Source of the DNA: a virus
Virus record (IMG/VR): IMGVR_UViG_3300031841_000518
Span: 1 to 37,677 of that record
DNA: 37,677 bases
Reading direction: 5' to 3' (one strand)
This document shows, piece by piece, positions 24,036-37,049 of the stretch. How positions within the stretch are numbered: position 1 is the first letter of the stretch; each line of letters starts with the position of its first letter. Under the pieces are notes generated by a model, which worked only from the letters and a program-made list of their open reading frames with translations, was not told the DNA's origin and did no database searches. The position numbers were made by a program, and so were the translations under genes.

Positions 24036-24063
24036 TTGACAATGCTAATTATATCTTTATGAT
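24036..24063 (+). promoter_or_regulatory. Promoter for the amidoligase operon
   Basis: TTGACA (24036-24041) and TATGAT (24058-24063), spacer 16. It sits four bases after the preceding stop and about 57 bases before the amidoligase ATG, so this gene set has its own transcription start. Confidence 0.7.
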
Positions 24064-24119
24064 TGGCATTTTCAAATATTAGATGAGCTGATATTTGTAA
24101 TAAATTGTGTGAGGTAAAC

Positions 24120-25304
24120 ATGACTTTATTAACTTATTTAAGAAATGATCTTTTGCTAGATGATCATGCGGTTAGAGATTTTGCAAGAGGTATTTTGCCA
24201 GATCATATCTCTCATGAATATGACTACGAGCAATTGGCTAGATTTTTTAGACAATTGAGAAGATTTAATCTTAGAAATCATGGTGGTTTTATTTATGATT
24301 TGATGAGTAATGCTGATCTTGATGAATGTGGGGATTGTGACTCTATCATGTCAATGTGTGACAGCTATTCAGTAAATCACGGAGATAATCATGTATGTCA
24401 AAGTTGTTGTGATGAAAATTATTATTATTCAGAACACGGAGATACATACAGACACAATGATGAATATGATGAGTATGAGGGCTATGATGAATATACAGGA
24501 ACTTATAGCTATGATACAAATGTATTAGATTATTGTGGTTTCAACAAATTACCTAACGAAAATGCTAGTCAATTTTACGGTATTGAGTTAGAAGTTGAGA
24601 GAAGAAAAGACTGTCCAAGTGATATTGCAGATGACATAAATCGTATGTATAACGGTTTTGCTATCTGTAAATCTGACGGCTCACTTGACAATGGCTTTGA
24701 GATTGTGACAGGTCCAAGCACTATTGGATATCACAAACTCAAATGGGAAGAGTTTTTCAATTCTAAAACTTGTCAAGAGAATCTTAAAGGTTGGAATACT
24801 GATACGGCAGGATTGCATATCCATATTGGTAGAAAACATTTAACACCTTTGAACATTGGTAAGATACTTGTCTTTATCAATGACAACAGCAACTATCATT
24901 TTATTAATGATATTGCAGGTCGATCTTCGGATCAATGGGCAAGGAAATCACCCAAAAAAGTATCTGATGTAATGCGACCAACAGGGGAAAAGTATGAAGC
25001 TGTGAATACAAATCATCACGCAACTATTGAACTTCGTATATTTCGATCTAATATTACAAGGCATGGTTTCTATCGTGTCTTGGAATTTACAGATGCTATG
25101 GTAAACTTTGTCAAGCAAACCAATTGCACGACTACAAGTTTACATTACACAGCATTTTGTCGCTATGTTGCAAGAGAGCAACAGCGATCACAATATCCTA
25201 ACCTCTTGGCTTGGCTTATTCGTAAAGGCTATGTCAAAGATGTTAAACCCTCTCGTATCGTGGTTGATACGGAAGAAGAAACAGTTACTAACCAAGTGGG
25301 GTAA
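24120..25304 (+). CDS. Amidoligase-like enzyme with N-terminal Cys-rich domain
   Basis: 394 aa. The C-terminal two thirds match the putative amidoligase family (glutamine-synthetase-like carboxylate-amine ligases): FYGIELEVE (152-160), KSDGSLDNGFEIVTGP (184-199), TAGLHIHIGR (229-238), and TIELRIFRS (302-310), which hold the acidic metal ligands, the His-x-His and the terminal Arg expected. Before it is a Cys cluster (C70, C73, C80, C93, C96, C97) resembling a zinc ribbon, and an Asp/Glu/Tyr-rich linker. The ATG at 24120 has GAGGT five bases upstream. Followed after two bases by a glutaminase-type gene, suggesting glutamine supplies the amine. Substrate unknown. Confidence 0.78.
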   Translation: MTLLTYLRNDLLLDDHAVRDFARGILPDHISHEYDYEQLARFFRQLRRFNLRNHGGFIYDLMSNADLDECGDCDSIMSMCDSYSVNHGDNHVCQSCCDENYYYSEHGDTYRHNDEYDEYEGYDEYTGTYSYDTNVLDYCGFNKLPNENASQFYGIELEVERRKDCPSDIADDINRMYNGFAICKSDGSLDNGFEIVTGPSTIGYHKLKWEEFFNSKTCQENLKGWNTDTAGLHIHIGRKHLTPLNIGKILVFINDNSNYHFINDIAGRSSDQWARKSPKKVSDVMRPTGEKYEAVNTNHHATIELRIFRSNITRHGFYRVLEFTDAMVNFVKQTNCTTTSLHYTAFCRYVAREQQRSQYPNLLAWLIRKGYVKDVKPSRIVVDTEEETVTNQVG

Positions 25305-25306
25305 TT

Positions 25307-26266
25307 ATGTGCTTAATAATAGCAACTAAAAATCCAAAGCAACTTTCATCAGCTTTAATGGAAACAGCTTATGAAAACAATTCCGACGGCTTTGGTTTGA
25401 TGTTTGTTCACAAAGGACAACTTCATACTCGGAAGATCGTTCCAAAAACTTTCAACGATATTGAAAAGTTATGGGATAAATATAAATCTATGGATACACC
25501 TATGGGTATTCACTTTAGATTTGCAACCAATGGCGATACTAATAAATCAATGTCACACCCTTTTGAAGTATTATCAAAAGCAAAAGGTGATGACAGGGAT
25601 CTATGGGTAATGCACAACGGACCACAACTACCAACACCTATGATTGACAATAACAAATCTGACACACATCAGTTTGTCAAATGGATACTACGACCTCAGT
25701 TGTCAGCTAATCCTAAATTGCTTTACAATGCAGAATGGCAAGAGATGATTGAGGAACTCATTGGTACGGACAAGTTATTATTTCTTGACAGCAAGACCAA
25801 GGAGTTTGTTATCTTCAATGAAGATCAAGGTACTGACATGGACAATGTGGGTTGGTTATCCAACACTTATTCCATACAGCCTACATCATATGGTAAGCGT
25901 GACAAATACTATGATGACAAAACAGATACAATCAAAGATGTATCGGATAGTAGCAAGTGGTGTTACGAAGATGATGATTGGGGTTATGGTAGCTACGGCA
26001 ACATAACACGACATCACTACGGACATTATAATCGTAATGGTGTAGAAGTTAAGCCTACACCTTTGGCTAGTGGTATCGGAGTTCAAGAACAATTGAACAT
26101 ACCATTACCAAAGCAAGACGCAGATGAAACTATGTGGAATGGTAAAACATTACGCATGGAAGACCTGTATCAAATGGACAAACAAGAAATAATAGAACTG
26201 TGCGAGGAGAATCCTGTTGGTGTGGGTTGCCTTGTCAGTGAAGAAATTGTGGGGAACAGAGCATGA
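25307..26266 (+). CDS. Class II glutamine amidotransferase-like protein
   Basis: 319 aa Ntn-hydrolase. The mature N-terminal nucleophile would be Cys2 after Met removal (MCLIIATKN). Supporting motifs: NNSDGFGLM (24-32), GIHFRFATNGD (67-77), HPF (84-86) and MHNGPQL (102-108), the class II glutaminase signature. Catalytic residues appear intact. Residues about 190-250 are Asp/Tyr/Gly-rich and unusual. It likely releases ammonia from glutamine for the adjacent amidoligase, or acts as a related amide hydrolase. Confidence 0.78.
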   Translation: MCLIIATKNPKQLSSALMETAYENNSDGFGLMFVHKGQLHTRKIVPKTFNDIEKLWDKYKSMDTPMGIHFRFATNGDTNKSMSHPFEVLSKAKGDDRDLWVMHNGPQLPTPMIDNNKSDTHQFVKWILRPQLSANPKLLYNAEWQEMIEELIGTDKLLFLDSKTKEFVIFNEDQGTDMDNVGWLSNTYSIQPTSYGKRDKYYDDKTDTIKDVSDSSKWCYEDDDWGYGSYGNITRHHYGHYNRNGVEVKPTPLASGIGVQEQLNIPLPKQDADETMWNGKTLRMEDLYQMDKQEIIELCEENPVGVGCLVSEEIVGNRA

Positions 26267-26979
26267 GCAATAAATATTTTAAACCAAGCATTGCATATTG
26301 GTGGAATGAGCCAATCACTTTTGCGATCTCTTTATCAAATCGCACAAAAGAATTTGGCAAGACTAAAGTTTTAGGCTCAAGAGTAAATACTAAAGACAAG
26401 TTTGAATATGTGTGGGCAGATCCTGTGAAAGCAGGATTGCCTAACAACATACATCTAAAGAATATTAGCTATGGGTATGTGCCTAGTGGCGAATCTTCTA
26501 CTTCAATTAGGTGGCTTGATCGTGACGGTAAGATACCTGTAGATATTATAAAGTATATTGTATTCAATGGTATTCGCATACGCAAAGCAGAATATGATGA
26601 GTTATACGATCCTAATACTAAACAATATCCAAGGACTCTTGTAAATCTAAAAAGCAATAGTACTTTACAAGTATCTTTACCACAATTAGTTGATAAATTA
26701 AAACGAATGGGTGAGTGGAATCTTATTGGCAACAAGCAATTAACTTCTACATCTATTAGAAAATTTGATTTATCTGAATGGATTGGTAACTTTCAAAGAG
26801 GTCACGCTACTGACAGGTTACGAATACTGAAAGCGTGGGGGCATAGTATCAATATACCTAAGAAAGCTATGGCATTATCAATGCACAGAGCAAACTATCA
26901 AGATAAGTTTAGTAGCTTTGCGTGTCTGTTTATGGAAGGACAACACGCAAGTGTAAAGGCTTATGACATGGTAGTATAA
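26263..26979 (+). CDS. Unknown protein of the amidoligase cluster
   Basis: 238 aa, basic, no recognised domain. Contains KPSIAYWWNEPITFAISLSN, WADPVKAGLPNNIHLKNISY and a C-terminal helical region IPKKAMALSMHRANYQDKFS. The start overlaps the glutamine amidotransferase stop (ATGA), so the two are co-translated and may act together. It could be the acceptor-recognition protein or an unrelated phage protein. Confidence 0.6.
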   Translation: MSNKYFKPSIAYWWNEPITFAISLSNRTKEFGKTKVLGSRVNTKDKFEYVWADPVKAGLPNNIHLKNISYGYVPSGESSTSIRWLDRDGKIPVDIIKYIVFNGIRIRKAEYDELYDPNTKQYPRTLVNLKSNSTLQVSLPQLVDKLKRMGEWNLIGNKQLTSTSIRKFDLSEWIGNFQRGHATDRLRILKAWGHSINIPKKAMALSMHRANYQDKFSSFACLFMEGQHASVKAYDMVV

Positions 26980-27151
26980 CACCGACATGACACCGACAGA
27001 ACACGAGGGTACTATGCTTACTGTCAAGGGGGCAGTTCAGTGTAATATTATAATAAAAATAATAATAAATTTTAAATCGTTAATAGGGATTGCACATGCC
27101 CCCAACCCTCGATATGTTGACCTATCGAGTTCTTTCGGTGTTCTATCGGTG
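26980..27151. repeat. Mirrored 11-base repeats around an AT-rich core (origin or regulatory element)
   Basis: Left: CACCGA at 26980 and 26991. Right: TCGGTG at 27135 and 27146. Both pairs have exactly 11-base spacing and face each other; consensus unit CACCGAyAGAA. Inside are further inverted pairs: CGAGGGT (27004-27010) with ACCCTCG (27105-27111), and GGGGGCA (27028-27034) with TGCCCCC (27097-27103), enclosing an A/T-only-like core (about 27042-27085). A dyad CTCGATA / TATCGAG lies at 27108-27129. No gene fits here. Confidence 0.68.
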
Positions 27152-27160
27152 CTTTTTCTA

Positions 27161-27188
27161 TTGACAAATTACAGGAGTATGCTATGAT
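27161..27188 (+). promoter_or_regulatory. Putative promoter after the mirrored repeats
   Basis: TTGACA (27161-27166) and TATGAT (27183-27188) with a 16-base spacer, the same boxes as the promoter at 24036. If used, transcription starts past the ATG of the 30-aa frame at 27184, so that frame would be read only from upstream transcripts. Confidence 0.5.
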
Positions 27189-27276
27189 TATAATTACATT
27201 ATTAACTTTTATGTGTGGTATGGTATGTGGCTTTATCGCACTCGGAACTTATACCTTTGTGAAGGGGGGCAGATGA
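27184..27276 (+). CDS. 30-aa membrane peptide
   Basis: MIIITLLTFMCGMVCGFIAL then GTYTFVKGGR: one hydrophobic span with basic end. AGGAG lies eight bases before ATG. It ends two bases before the next membrane peptide. Overlaps the -10 of a putative promoter, which makes either call uncertain. Confidence 0.5.
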   Translation: MIIITLLTFMCGMVCGFIALGTYTFVKGGR

Positions 27277-27277
27277 A

Positions 27278-27352
27278 ATGGAAATTGACAACTCAGTTTT
27301 GTATCTTATTTTTAGTCTTATTGGTATACTCATCATCTGGTATCTGAAATGA
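27278..27352 (+). CDS. 24-aa membrane peptide
   Basis: MEIDNSVLYLIFSLIGILII ends WYLK: single membrane helix with acidic N-terminus and a Lys end. Stop overlaps the next ATG (ATGA) and a G-rich stretch precedes the start. A frame one base shifted (ATG 27273) is also open for 24 codons but is less membrane-like at its end. Function unknown. Confidence 0.5.
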   Translation: MEIDNSVLYLIFSLIGILIIWYLK

Positions 27353-27867
27353 TTATCGGAAAGTATATACCTGACAATGCGATACAAGTTAGATATGTTC
27401 ATCCTCAGTATGAACAAGATGAAGACGGCAACGAATATGTATGGAACGAAGAAGAAATGACAGATGTTGAAGCCTTGATTCGTGAAGTTAACAGAAATCA
27501 AATACCTTTATACTATCGTCGCAGAGTATCTGACTATGCTCGTGAAGATACGCGTAGGTGGAACAGATATATCAATGATAATAACCGACACTATAAAGAT
27601 AGTCTTTTATATGTTCGTGTTAAGAAAGTAGGTAGACGAGTTCTTGTTGTCTATGACAAAGCCTATTGGGATAAGATACTTGCTTCTGGTAAAAAGATTA
27701 CAAGTAATATGGGTGCTGTGAATCGCAACAACATAAGACACAGACCTCGTCACATAGTAATGTCACCAGATGTATCACCAGATGTACAAGAATCTATAGA
27801 AGATTTTGTAAGATCGTTGGATGAAAATACGCATACAACATGGGGGGAGGATCATGAAGAAAGATGA
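27349..27867 (+). CDS. Hypothetical protein
   Basis: 172 aa, charged. YEQDEDGNEYVWNEEEMTDV, a basic region YYRRRVSDYAREDTRRWNRY, then strands LLYVRVKKVGRRVLVVYDKA and a C-terminal SPDVSPDVQESIEDFVRSL. No family recognised. Translationally coupled to the 24-aa membrane peptide (ATGA). Confidence 0.6.
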   Translation: MIIGKYIPDNAIQVRYVHPQYEQDEDGNEYVWNEEEMTDVEALIREVNRNQIPLYYRRRVSDYAREDTRRWNRYINDNNRHYKDSLLYVRVKKVGRRVLVVYDKAYWDKILASGKKITSNMGAVNRNNIRHRPRHIVMSPDVSPDVQESIEDFVRSLDENTHTTWGEDHEER

Positions 27868-28120
27868 ACTACAGATTGTATTGATTGATTGGCTCGACGC
27901 TATGTCGGATGATAACTCATGGCAAGAGTTAAAAGAATTAGAAGAACAAAAGCTAAGACCTGTCACAAGTGTCGGATATGTTATCAAAGAAGATAAGGAT
28001 TCCGTCATTCTTGTGTCATCTTTTGATGAAGAAAGTCAATGTGGTGGTGGGGGTGTTGTTATCCCTACCAATTGTATTACAAATAAAACAGTATTGAAAG
28101 GACAAATTAATGTCGAATGA
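27854..28120 (+). CDS. Conserved small phage protein
   Basis: 88 aa from ATG 27854 (GGGGAGGATC upstream), overlapping the previous gene by 14 bases. Pattern: IVLIDWLDAMSDDNSWQELK, then TSVGYVIKEDKDSVILVSS and VVIPTNCI. The D-W-x-D-A ... T-S-V-G-Y-x-I-K-E-D arrangement is familiar from many phage and prophage hypothetical proteins. Likely a small beta-barrel; function unknown. Confidence 0.65.
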   Translation: MKKDELQIVLIDWLDAMSDDNSWQELKELEEQKLRPVTSVGYVIKEDKDSVILVSSFDEESQCGGGGVVIPTNCITNKTVLKGQINVE

Positions 28121-28526
28121 TTATGATTGGAGAACTAATCTATTCGTCTATGGCACACTAAAAAAGAACGGCAGATTACACAGCGTGCTAGGTAATTCAT
28201 CTGAATTTGTTGGCACATATGTGACAGCAGATAACAAGTATGATTTGTTTAGTTACGCAAAAAGTTTTCCTATTCTTGTGGCAAGAGAGAAAGGATTTAG
28301 AATACGGGGTGAGGTGTGGTCAGTCACACCAGAAACTATGGATAGAGTAAATGCTATCGAGAGTGGATCATCATACTACCCTTTCCAAATAGATGTGATG
28401 AATGAAGTAACAAAAGAATATGAGGTTGGATCTGTGCTAGTCTTTATGTTCCCAGGGAACAACCATAGGCTTATGCCTGTTAAAGATATTGAAGCAGTAG
28501 ACAACATCAAGGAGTGGTCAATATGA
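28110..28526 (+). CDS. Gamma-glutamylcyclotransferase (AIG2/YtfP)-like protein
   Basis: 138 aa with the GGCT fold: LFVYGTLKKNG (11-21, the YGTL substrate loop), FVGTYVTADNKYDLFS, FRIRGEVWSV (63-72) and the catalytic acid region VNAIESGSSYYPF with E84. These enzymes cyclise gamma-glutamyl amines to 5-oxoproline, or work as gamma-glutamylamine cyclotransferases. In the same operon as an amidoligase and a class II glutaminase, it may remove or process a gamma-glutamyl intermediate. Overlaps its neighbours on both sides. Confidence 0.82.
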   Translation: MSNDYDWRTNLFVYGTLKKNGRLHSVLGNSSEFVGTYVTADNKYDLFSYAKSFPILVAREKGFRIRGEVWSVTPETMDRVNAIESGSSYYPFQIDVMNEVTKEYEVGSVLVFMFPGNNHRLMPVKDIEAVDNIKEWSI

Positions 28527-33899: not shown

Positions 33900-34083
33900 T
33901 AACATAGCTACACTGTGGACAGCGTATTTAGGACCTACTATTACGGCACACGATGTGGCAGTCATGATGTTATTATTAAAAGTAGCAAGGACTAAATCAC
34001 CTAACCCAACAAAAGATACTTATGTAGACATGGTAGGATATTCAGCTATAGCAGGAGAATTATTAAATGATAAAAGTAAGTAA
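33805..34083 (+). CDS. DUF6378-like phage protein
   Basis: 92 aa: ILKGPREKEYGDKKENHDNI, TLWTAYLGPTITAHDVAVMM, KVARTKSPNPTKDTYVDMVG. This matches the conserved phage domain DUF6378 (R-x-x-x-Y-G-D ... W-x-A-Y-L-G ... D-V-A-x-M-M ... D-x-W/Y-V-D-x-x-G-Y) found beside nucleotide metabolism and replication genes. GGAGAAA precedes ATG. It overlaps both neighbours and lies between the two polymerase halves. Confidence 0.8.
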   Translation: MVVSIEENLKEALKILKGPREKEYGDKKENHDNIATLWTAYLGPTITAHDVAVMMLLLKVARTKSPNPTKDTYVDMVGYSAIAGELLNDKSK

Positions 34084-35596
34084 TAATAATTTAGATCTAT
34101 CACCTTACAACGATGATCAGATCAACTGGATATATTGTGCATTAGATTGTGCTTTGACTCAAGAGATATGGGAAAAAATATCTGAAGACTTTGATGATAC
34201 GACAAGAGGCACATATGATTTTGAAATAAAAAGTTTAAAGCCAGCTATGGCTATGACCTTGCGTGGCTTACGTGTTGATGAAGACAAAGTAAAAGCAATT
34301 AGAAAACCTTTACAAGAAAAAAGATTACAACTAGAAAGAATGTTACATTTGTTTTCAAGATCTGTAAATGGCAAAGATTTAAATCACAATAGTCCAGTGC
34401 AACTTAAAAAATTATTATACGAAGATCTTAACTTACCACCTGTAGTTTCATACAAGAAAGGTAAACAAAAAATATCTACGGATCGTGATGCTTTAGAATC
34501 GTTAGCAGAATCCTATCCAAGAGCAAGACCTTTTTGCAAAACTATCCTGGCGTTGCGTGACATAGATAAAAATCTTTCAGTTCTTAGCTCCAAGCGTGAC
34601 ACGGATGGAAGAATAAGATGTTCATACAATGTGGCAGGTACAGAGACAGGCAGATGGTCTTCAAGAGAATCACCGTGGCGTACTGGCACAAACTTACAGA
34701 ACATAACAAAAGATTTACGAGAAGTATTTATACCTGATGAAGGTAACAAAATGTTTTATGCTGACTTAGAACAAGCTGAGTCTCGCGCCGTTGCATACTT
34801 GGCTGCCGATCAAAACTATATAGATGTATGTGAGAGTACAGATTTGCATACCGAAGTTGTGAAAATGGTATGGCCCAATCTAGGTTGGTCAGATGATCCC
34901 GTTCAAGACAGAGCGTTAGCTGATAGAAAATATTATTTACATCATACCTACCGTGACATATGCAAACGAGCAGGACATGGAACTAACTATGGAGTGTCAC
35001 CTCACTCTTTGGCTAGACAAATAAAGATCAAAGTGTCGCAGGCTACACGATTTCAGTTGCTTTATTTTGGTGGTGTGGTATCATCCACATCTTTAGAGAG
35101 ATGGCATAAACAAGATCCACAAGGTGGATACAAAGAATTAATAGATCAAGGAGAGAAGATAGGAAAAGATACACTAAAGATAAGGGGGGCATTCCCAGGC
35201 ATACGAGTATGGCATTCAGCTATACAAAGAGAGTTGCTTGAGAAAGGTAGTCTTGTCACGCCTATGGGTAGACGTAGACACTTTTGGGATAGACTTAAAG
35301 ATGCTTCTACTTTACGTGCGGCGATAGCTTTTGTCCCACAGTCTACGATAGGTGACTTACTTAATCTAGGATTGTGTAGAGTATATGATGAACTGAAGGA
35401 CTCTGGTATAGAAGTGTTAGGTCAAGTGCATGATGCGATACTAGGCCAGTGTCATAAAGATAAGATAGATGAACTCATGCCAATGGTGCTTGAGAAAATG
35501 CACAATCCATTGACGGTCAATGGGCGTGAAATGATAATACCATCCTCTGTAGAAGTGGGTGATAACTGGAAGGACATGATAACATGGAAGAAATAA
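34067..35596 (+). CDS. polA: Family A DNA polymerase, polymerase domain with exonuclease motif III
   Basis: 509 aa. Residues 23-27 (YCALD) are exonuclease motif III, separated from motifs I and II encoded upstream. Polymerase motif A: YADLEQAESRA (D233). Motif B: R296, K300, H304, Y308-G309, the R-x3-K-x3-X-x3-YG helix with His at the position of E. coli F762. Motif C: QVHDAIL (H455, D456), with Ala where Glu is common. TGRWSSR and NLQNI are present. AGGAG precedes ATG, so the half is translated on its own. Replicates phage DNA; the split likely requires assembly with the 32455 product. Confidence 0.9.
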   Translation: MIKVSNNNLDLSPYNDDQINWIYCALDCALTQEIWEKISEDFDDTTRGTYDFEIKSLKPAMAMTLRGLRVDEDKVKAIRKPLQEKRLQLERMLHLFSRSVNGKDLNHNSPVQLKKLLYEDLNLPPVVSYKKGKQKISTDRDALESLAESYPRARPFCKTILALRDIDKNLSVLSSKRDTDGRIRCSYNVAGTETGRWSSRESPWRTGTNLQNITKDLREVFIPDEGNKMFYADLEQAESRAVAYLAADQNYIDVCESTDLHTEVVKMVWPNLGWSDDPVQDRALADRKYYLHHTYRDICKRAGHGTNYGVSPHSLARQIKIKVSQATRFQLLYFGGVVSSTSLERWHKQDPQGGYKELIDQGEKIGKDTLKIRGAFPGIRVWHSAIQRELLEKGSLVTPMGRRRHFWDRLKDASTLRAAIAFVPQSTIGDLLNLGLCRVYDELKDSGIEVLGQVHDAILGQCHKDKIDELMPMVLEKMHNPLTVNGREMIIPSSVEVGDNWKDMITWKK

Positions 35597-35793
35597 AAAA
35601 GATATATGTAGAAGATGGCATGATTGTGGTCAAAGAAAAAGACACACATACTAAATGTCACGGACTGGATATCAAAGGACCAAGTGAAATGAAATCAGAT
35701 GAAGATGGAAACATTTGGATTGAGACAACAGCAGACCTGGAGAAAATCGTGAGGATACATCCAGATAATATTCGTACGGCTAATGCTAATTAA
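35584..35793 (+). CDS. Small hypothetical protein
   Basis: 69 aa: KIYVEDGMIVVKEKDTHTKC, GLDIKGPSEMKSDEDGNIWI. Beta-rich, no motif. Overlaps the polymerase end by 13 bases and the next start by one (TAATG), so part of the replication transcript. Unknown. Confidence 0.58.
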   Translation: MEEIKKIYVEDGMIVVKEKDTHTKCHGLDIKGPSEMKSDEDGNIWIETTADLEKIVRIHPDNIRTANAN

Positions 35794-37049
35794 TGCCACG
35801 AAAACACAAAGATTTTGTTGAGGCATGTGTTGACGCTGTAAAAGATAGTCCGATACCAAAGCCGTTTGCTAAGTGGACAGCCTTGTCTGCTGTAGCAGGT
35901 GCTCTGGGTAGGAAGGTATGGTTTCCTATGCCTAACTACAACATCGGTTCTAATTTATTTGTAATACTCATAGCTTCTCCTGGCAGAAATAAATCTGTCA
36001 GTTTAATACTGCCATTCTCAAAGGTGTTTAGCAGATTGACTTCACCTGTTGGTGCAACAGAAGACGATCACAATTTTAACACATCTTTAGATGACTATGG
36101 GTTGCGTAAGTTTCCGTTGTATACTATCCAAGATAGGATAACACCAGAGAAGTTGGCAGTAGACATGACTAAAATTACACGTATGGATATGCGTCTAATG
36201 AATGAAGAGAACCCAGAGTTCTATGATTCATCTTTAACTTTAGTTACATCTGAGTTTGGTACATTCATGGGTCGTAACGAAAGATACTTACAAATGTTTT
36301 TAACAGACATGTGGGATGCTAAAGATTCTTACAGTCACAAAACAAAAACTGCTGGTGAATATATAATACAAGGTCCGTGTTTGAATTGGATAGCTTGTGC
36401 TACGCCTACACAGTTTGTAGATAACTTACCAGAAGATGCTAAGTCACAAGGTTTATTATCTAGAATCATACCTGTGTTTTATGAAGGGGAAAAGATACCA
36501 CAAGATCTTAGACAAAAAGTTATTAGTGAACACACTATCAATGAACTGCGAAATGATTTAAGTAGTGTGGCTAAAATGTATGGACCTATGGAGTTTGAAA
36601 GAGATGCGTTTGACTTGGCTAATGCAGATATCTTTGATGGTGTGCAACCAGAACCTACTGATCCACATCTGTCGGAGTATTGTCAAAGACGTGTGTCACA
36701 CTTTTTAAAAGTTGCCATGTCTGTGTCAGCTTCACGATCTTCTAGTCGTAAGATTACAATTGATGATTGGGAAACTACAAAAGAGATTATGTTTGACATG
36801 GAGAAGTATATGCCTAAAGCTTTGGAAGGTTTTGGTATGGCGAAGACAGGTAGGATTGCTCATGATATGAAGGTGTGGCTAGATGCCACACTTCTATCTG
36901 GTAACAAGAACCACATGCAGTTACGTTTCTTCAAGCGAGAACTGCTGAGAAAGATACAGAATCCTGGTGAGTTAGATCAGACTATCAAAGCTATGCAAGA
37001 TTCTGGATACATAAAGTTGGAGGGGAATTTAATTTTTCCAAAAAAGTAA
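35793..37049 (+). CDS. DUF3987-like P-loop ATPase (replication)
   Basis: 418 aa. N-terminus AKWTALSAVAGALGRKVWFP then NLFVILIASPGRNKSVSLI (Walker-A-like ASPGRNKS, residues 61-68). SLTLVTSEFGTFMGRN and IIQGPCLNWIACATPTQF are typical of DUF3987 proteins, which often accompany phage or plasmid primases and helicases. DAKSQGLLSRIIPVFYEG corresponds to the sensor/arginine-finger region. C-terminal winged-helix-like (LLRKIQNPGELDQTIKAMQD). Likely replicative ATPase or helicase loader; no separate helicase is visible in the window. Confidence 0.72.
   Translation: MPRKHKDFVEACVDAVKDSPIPKPFAKWTALSAVAGALGRKVWFPMPNYNIGSNLFVILIASPGRNKSVSLILPFSKVFSRLTSPVGATEDDHNFNTSLDDYGLRKFPLYTIQDRITPEKLAVDMTKITRMDMRLMNEENPEFYDSSLTLVTSEFGTFMGRNERYLQMFLTDMWDAKDSYSHKTKTAGEYIIQGPCLNWIACATPTQFVDNLPEDAKSQGLLSRIIPVFYEGEKIPQDLRQKVISEHTINELRNDLSSVAKMYGPMEFERDAFDLANADIFDGVQPEPTDPHLSEYCQRRVSHFLKVAMSVSASRSSSRKITIDDWETTKEIMFDMEKYMPKALEGFGMAKTGRIAHDMKVWLDATLLSGNKNHMQLRFFKRELLRKIQNPGELDQTIKAMQDSGYIKLEGNLIFPKK

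Follow-up and report, generated by a model that had tools for sequence, protein, structure and literature searches.

The element described here lies in a 37,677-nucleotide stretch of DNA from a marine phage (IMG/VR record IMGVR_UViG_3300031841_000518), which was analysed at its full length and is called the window below. It occupies the non-coding interval between a gene for a 238-aa protein, which ends at 26979, and a 30-aa ORF, which starts at 27184. The features of the locus, and the two replication genes that are referred to later, are as follows.

26263 to 26979, + strand: upstream 238-aa protein of no known family; always adjoins the element
26980 to 27012, - strand: left iteron array (L1, L2 and degenerate L3)
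26980 to 26990: L1, CACCGACATGA
26991 to 27001: L2, CACCGACAGAA
27002 to 27012: L3, degenerate; in the second lineage of relatives TACCGAGCGTA
27028 to 27034: inner inverted pair, left half, GGGGGCA
27043 to 27077: pure A/T run of 35 bp, candidate DNA-unwinding element
27049 to 27088: core of 40 bp, identical in both lineages
27097 to 27103: inner inverted pair, right half, TGCCCCC
27119 to 27151, + strand: right iteron array (degenerate R1, R2 and R3)
27119 to 27129: R1, degenerate, TATCGAG; in the second lineage TTCGGTG
27130 to 27140: R2, TTCTTTCGGTG
27141 to 27151: R3, TTCTATCGGTG
27161 to 27188, + strand: promoter-like TTGACA-16-TATGAT, conserved, 9 bp past R3
27184 to 27276, + strand: 30-aa membrane-like peptide directly downstream, with SD AGGAG; conserved in relatives
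27349 to 27867, + strand: downstream 172-aa protein of no family
34067 to 35596: PolA-type polymerase
35793 to 37049: primase-helicase-like DUF3987 protein

An earlier sequence-only reading had placed CACCGA at 26980 and 26991 and TCGGTG at 27135 and 27146 with 11-bp spacing, and on re-checking the match was exact. TCGGTG is found nowhere else in the 37.7-kb window and CACCGA has two lone extra copies. When the layout was defined as any hexamer repeated at +11 whose reverse complement is likewise repeated at +11 within 250 bp, the window gave exactly one match whereas 300 dinucleotide-preserving shuffles gave none, and the mirrored layout is not attributable to chance. Each array has two strong 11-bp units and one weak unit and the design is therefore 3+3. 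The further nested pairs of that reading correspond to the weak third units, L3 and R1, and to the GGGGGCA/TGCCCCC pair, in which four of the G-C pairs of GGGGGC/GCCCCC are invariant in 13 of 13 aligned rows. What it had called an AT-only core is the pure A/T run of 35 bp at 27043 to 27077. No A/T run in the genome is longer, the runner-up being 23, the 40-bp window that contains it is the least stable of all, and the A/T core is the strongest unwinding candidate that the genome has. The region was also correctly described as non-coding: a chance 66-aa frame varies at codon positions 1, 2 and 3 at 14, 17 and 12 sites, respectively, and it was rejected as a gene because its variable sites have no third-position excess.

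Absence of the repeats from close relatives had been named as the observation that would refute the element. A gap pattern for the layout matched 17 IMG/VR contigs, while an independent alignment search with the upstream 238-aa gene found 19. Since two of these 19 contigs stop within the gene and all 17 that extend past it carry the element, the absence test does not refute it. The contigs fall into two lineages, the second being made up of L010, L012, L017, and L019. In this second lineage the left units are CACCGA, CACCGA, and TACCGA, the right units are TTCGGTG, TATCGGTG, and TATCGGTA, and the weak units are stronger than those in the window; thus, both lineages have three units on each side. 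The span of the six units is 172 or 175 bp depending on the lineage and, as in iteron origins, which have three or more repeats in helical register, all relatives have such units on each side, two strong and one weak. Between the lineages there are no differences in 27049 to 27088, whereas the 238-aa protein is 39% identical and the nucleotide identity of its gene is 41-58% per 100 bp. Because some nearby coding stretches are equally conserved, the core is conserved relative to its upstream neighbour but not uniquely so. The arrays adjoin an AT-rich candidate unwinding element, as iterons do in iteron origins, and its core is invariant between the lineages. A DNA search among annotated phages found no relatives, a second search gave only matches with E 3 or worse, and the distant phages Kuura and PaP2 have no equivalent layout. 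Two contigs with 18-base core matches, L049 and L050, were rejected as chance matches in other sequence. In a single case, a contig starts inside the A/T core (L025:1-33, IMGVR_UViG_3300034407_000943), and this is probably an assembly break.

The 238-aa protein is a possible DNA-binding partner of the element. Relatives of its gene were not found in bacterial genomes, and its predicted structure, with a pLDDT of 37, was unusable. The 172-aa protein has a confident predicted fold over residues 10-120, with which a fold search found nothing below E 0.4. The TATGAT of the promoter-like site runs into the ATG (27184) of the small ORF that follows, so that use of the site as a promoter is uncertain. 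A second promoter-like TTGACA-16-TATGAT site lies at 24036-24063, upstream of an amidoligase-like gene, and is conserved in L013 and L018. The genes around the element, in 24105-28526, code for a weakly amidoligase-like protein, a class-II glutamine-amidotransferase-like one (N-terminal MCLIIAT) and a gamma-glutamyl cyclotransferase (Pfam GGACT, E 3e-13); they look like a peptide-tagging cassette and are kept in the relatives. At the late-region end, on the - strand of 112-2897, there are two 2-oxoglutarate dioxygenase-like proteins and a carbamoyltransferase-like protein spread over two ORFs, assigned by sequence judgement only. The phage replication genes, namely, those for PolA, the DUF3987 primase-helicase-like protein, a Sak4-like ATPase, and a PD-(D/E)XK nuclease, are in the + strand region that they share with the element.

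A scan for three TCGGTG at 11-bp spacing found 62 contigs, only four of which belong to the family of the element and about 58 of which are unrelated (L051-L108). By our own estimate about 5 would be expected at random even at 87 Gb, a figure that composition bias and tandem repetition raise. In many of these arrays the hexamer is fixed while the five spacer bases vary, which is the pattern expected of binding sites. Compared with PHROGs, 16 of 30 array-spanning ORFs matched replication initiation, lambda-O-like, DnaD-like or replisome-organizer families (15 distinct matches, because L088 and L099 score identically), whereas none of 10 control ORFs from the same contigs matched an initiator, one of these controls being a helicase loader that adjoins the array. 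The element thus has, in CACCGA-N5, an iteron unit in common with the initiator-linked arrays of other phages. The other 14 of the 30 matched no initiator family, and CACCGA arrays may serve other functions too. When initiator genes were fetched by protein homology, in-gene arrays of 11-12 bp were present in at least 4 of 12 clear cases (L109, L110, L111, and L120) and A/T-rich sequence adjoins some of the arrays. The homology-picked genes bear other 11-12-bp motifs, ACAACAGACGG and CTCGCGAGACC, and so what the arrays have in common may be the period and not CACCGA itself. Tandem repetition at 11 bp therefore recurs as a mark of phage origins, with CACCGA among its motifs. The 15 arrays in initiator genes showed a weak polarity of A/T-rich flanks (AT 0.57 vs 0.52, Wilcoxon p=0.026) and other arrays showed no such effect. 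No description of a CACCGA iteron origin was found in the open literature searched. In L091:10110-10215, a GC-rich contig of an unrelated phage, three CACCGA and three TCGGTG are mirrored around a spacer of about 40 bp in non-coding DNA between structural genes, which is an independent instance of the mirrored layout. Its place among structural genes is a further reason to suspect that CACCGA arrays may do other things.

Given the excess of initiator-like proteins spanning the arrays over the controls, an origin is the best reading of the element, and it is probably a replication origin of this marine phage family. The sequence-only reading had proposed a candidate second origin. The arrays linked to initiator genes and the unwinding core argue for the origin, but nothing supports calling it the second, in the absence of a known first one. 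In lambda-type origins, the initiator gene contains iterons together with an AT-rich tract (PMC7466680). The element is like them in having short tandem candidate initiator sites beside an AT-rich unwinding region, and CACCGA at an 11-bp period also occurs in the lambda O, DnaD-like, and replisome-organizer genes of other phages. However, the lambda-type array is part of the initiator gene and all its units point the same way, whereas the phage element lies between genes, with two arrays in mirror image around the A/T core, and searches of the window and of a 38-kb relative found no O-like or DnaD-like homologue. That a homologue of the iteron-bearing initiators was not found in these two sequences counts against the origin reading, and so does the finding that there is no GC-skew switch at 27 kb. 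The mirrored layout resembles that of HSV oriS, where inverted boxes for the origin-binding protein flank an AT-rich spacer in an imperfect palindrome that forms a hairpin on unwinding (PMC12543377). The phage element likewise has inverted boxes flanking an AT-rich spacer, to which by analogy an initiator would bind, but virus and sequence are unrelated and oriS has single boxes where the phage has three 11-bp units per side. In the phage satellite PLE, a RepA_N-type origin made of non-coding repeats has been experimentally shown and is bound by the encoded initiator (PMC7145576). Its repeats are non-coding like those of the phage element, but the iterons are semi-palindromic, the RepA is known, and there are no mirrored arrays.

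The best rival to an origin is a looping operator, in which a phage regulator bound to the arrays would repress or activate the promoter-like TTGACA-16-TATGAT site just past the right array and the left array would be an auxiliary operator. TTGACA and TATGAT show no variation in either lineage, and TTGACA follows the end of the right array by 8-9 bp, as this explanation would have it. However, the overlap of TATGAT with the start codon that comes next would give a transcript without that start, the array-to-array distance differs by 3 bp between the lineages and the helical phase is thereby shifted, and the invariant A/T core is left unexplained, and we regard an operator as unlikely. The arms could instead be a structured RNA in an early mRNA, such as a regulatory hairpin or one for RNase III processing, in which they would form a long stem and the 11-bp period would be one A-form turn. 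The RNA fold z-scores of -4.4 in the window and -7.4 in the second lineage are in keeping with this, and in both lineages the pairing of the arms exceeds that due to the fixed hexamers. But the + and - strands fold equally well, the lineage changes at pairs fit G-U equally often on the + and the - strand, and a two-sided change is present at 1 of 41 pairs, which is below the shuffled expectation, so that the compensatory changes expected of a structured RNA on the transcribed strand were not found. Rfam gave no family match, the one sub-threshold match, at 15.7 bits vs 60, falling far short of its gathering score. Since a mirrored DNA site yields an equal fold, it accounts for the folds as well as an RNA does, and an RNA is quite unlikely.

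A site-specific recombination, partition or packaging site (attP-, parC- or pac-like) is very improbable. The recombination element that the sequence-only reading had offered recalls attP in its arm sites around a core, but searches for a tyrosine integrase (PF00589) and a serine resolvase (PF00239) gave no match while their controls were positive, in records that may be incomplete, and a 29-base core pattern, which an attP would have in common with a bacterial site, had no match in 84,980 bacterial species genomes, although a shorter common core may exist. Its partition-like element is not supported. The parC of plasmid R1 consists of two blocks of 11-bp direct repeats that flank a central segment with a promoter, and the phage element similarly has two 11-bp repeat blocks around a centre. 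But the repeats of parC are direct, beside parM and parR, whereas the phage arrays are mirrored; no par genes were found and ParB in particular was not found. The ParM search has no bearing on partition because its control was silent. As for packaging, the ends of the contigs lie scattered, with no clear clustering at the element.

If the element is an origin, a phage initiator would bind the CACCGA units in both arrays, whose one-turn spacing would stack the initiators on the same side of the helix. Two initiator complexes would then face the A/T core from opposite sides and melt it, and the melted core would receive the primase-helicase-like protein (35793-37049) and the PolA-type polymerase (34067-35596). 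A hairpin role during opening is possible, in that the extra complementarity of the arms, beyond the hexamers, would let the single strands fold into a hairpin as the DNA opens, as compared with OriS* of herpesvirus. We infer the initiator, its binding, the opening, and replication at the element. A more specific proposal, which we put forward only tentatively, is that this is a phage origin with oriS-like symmetry, in which two mirrored sets of three 11-bp sites face one A/T core, the initiator belongs to an undescribed family, and a single palindromic site has two forks loaded in opposite directions. Such a mirrored origin design would be unusual for a phage. To our knowledge, the origins of nearly all uncultured marine phages are unknown. 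The element is compact (about 210 bp) and conserved and is suited to testing as a cloned segment, and 11-bp CACCGA-N5 arrays are a simple sequence handle for locating phage origins in metagenomes.
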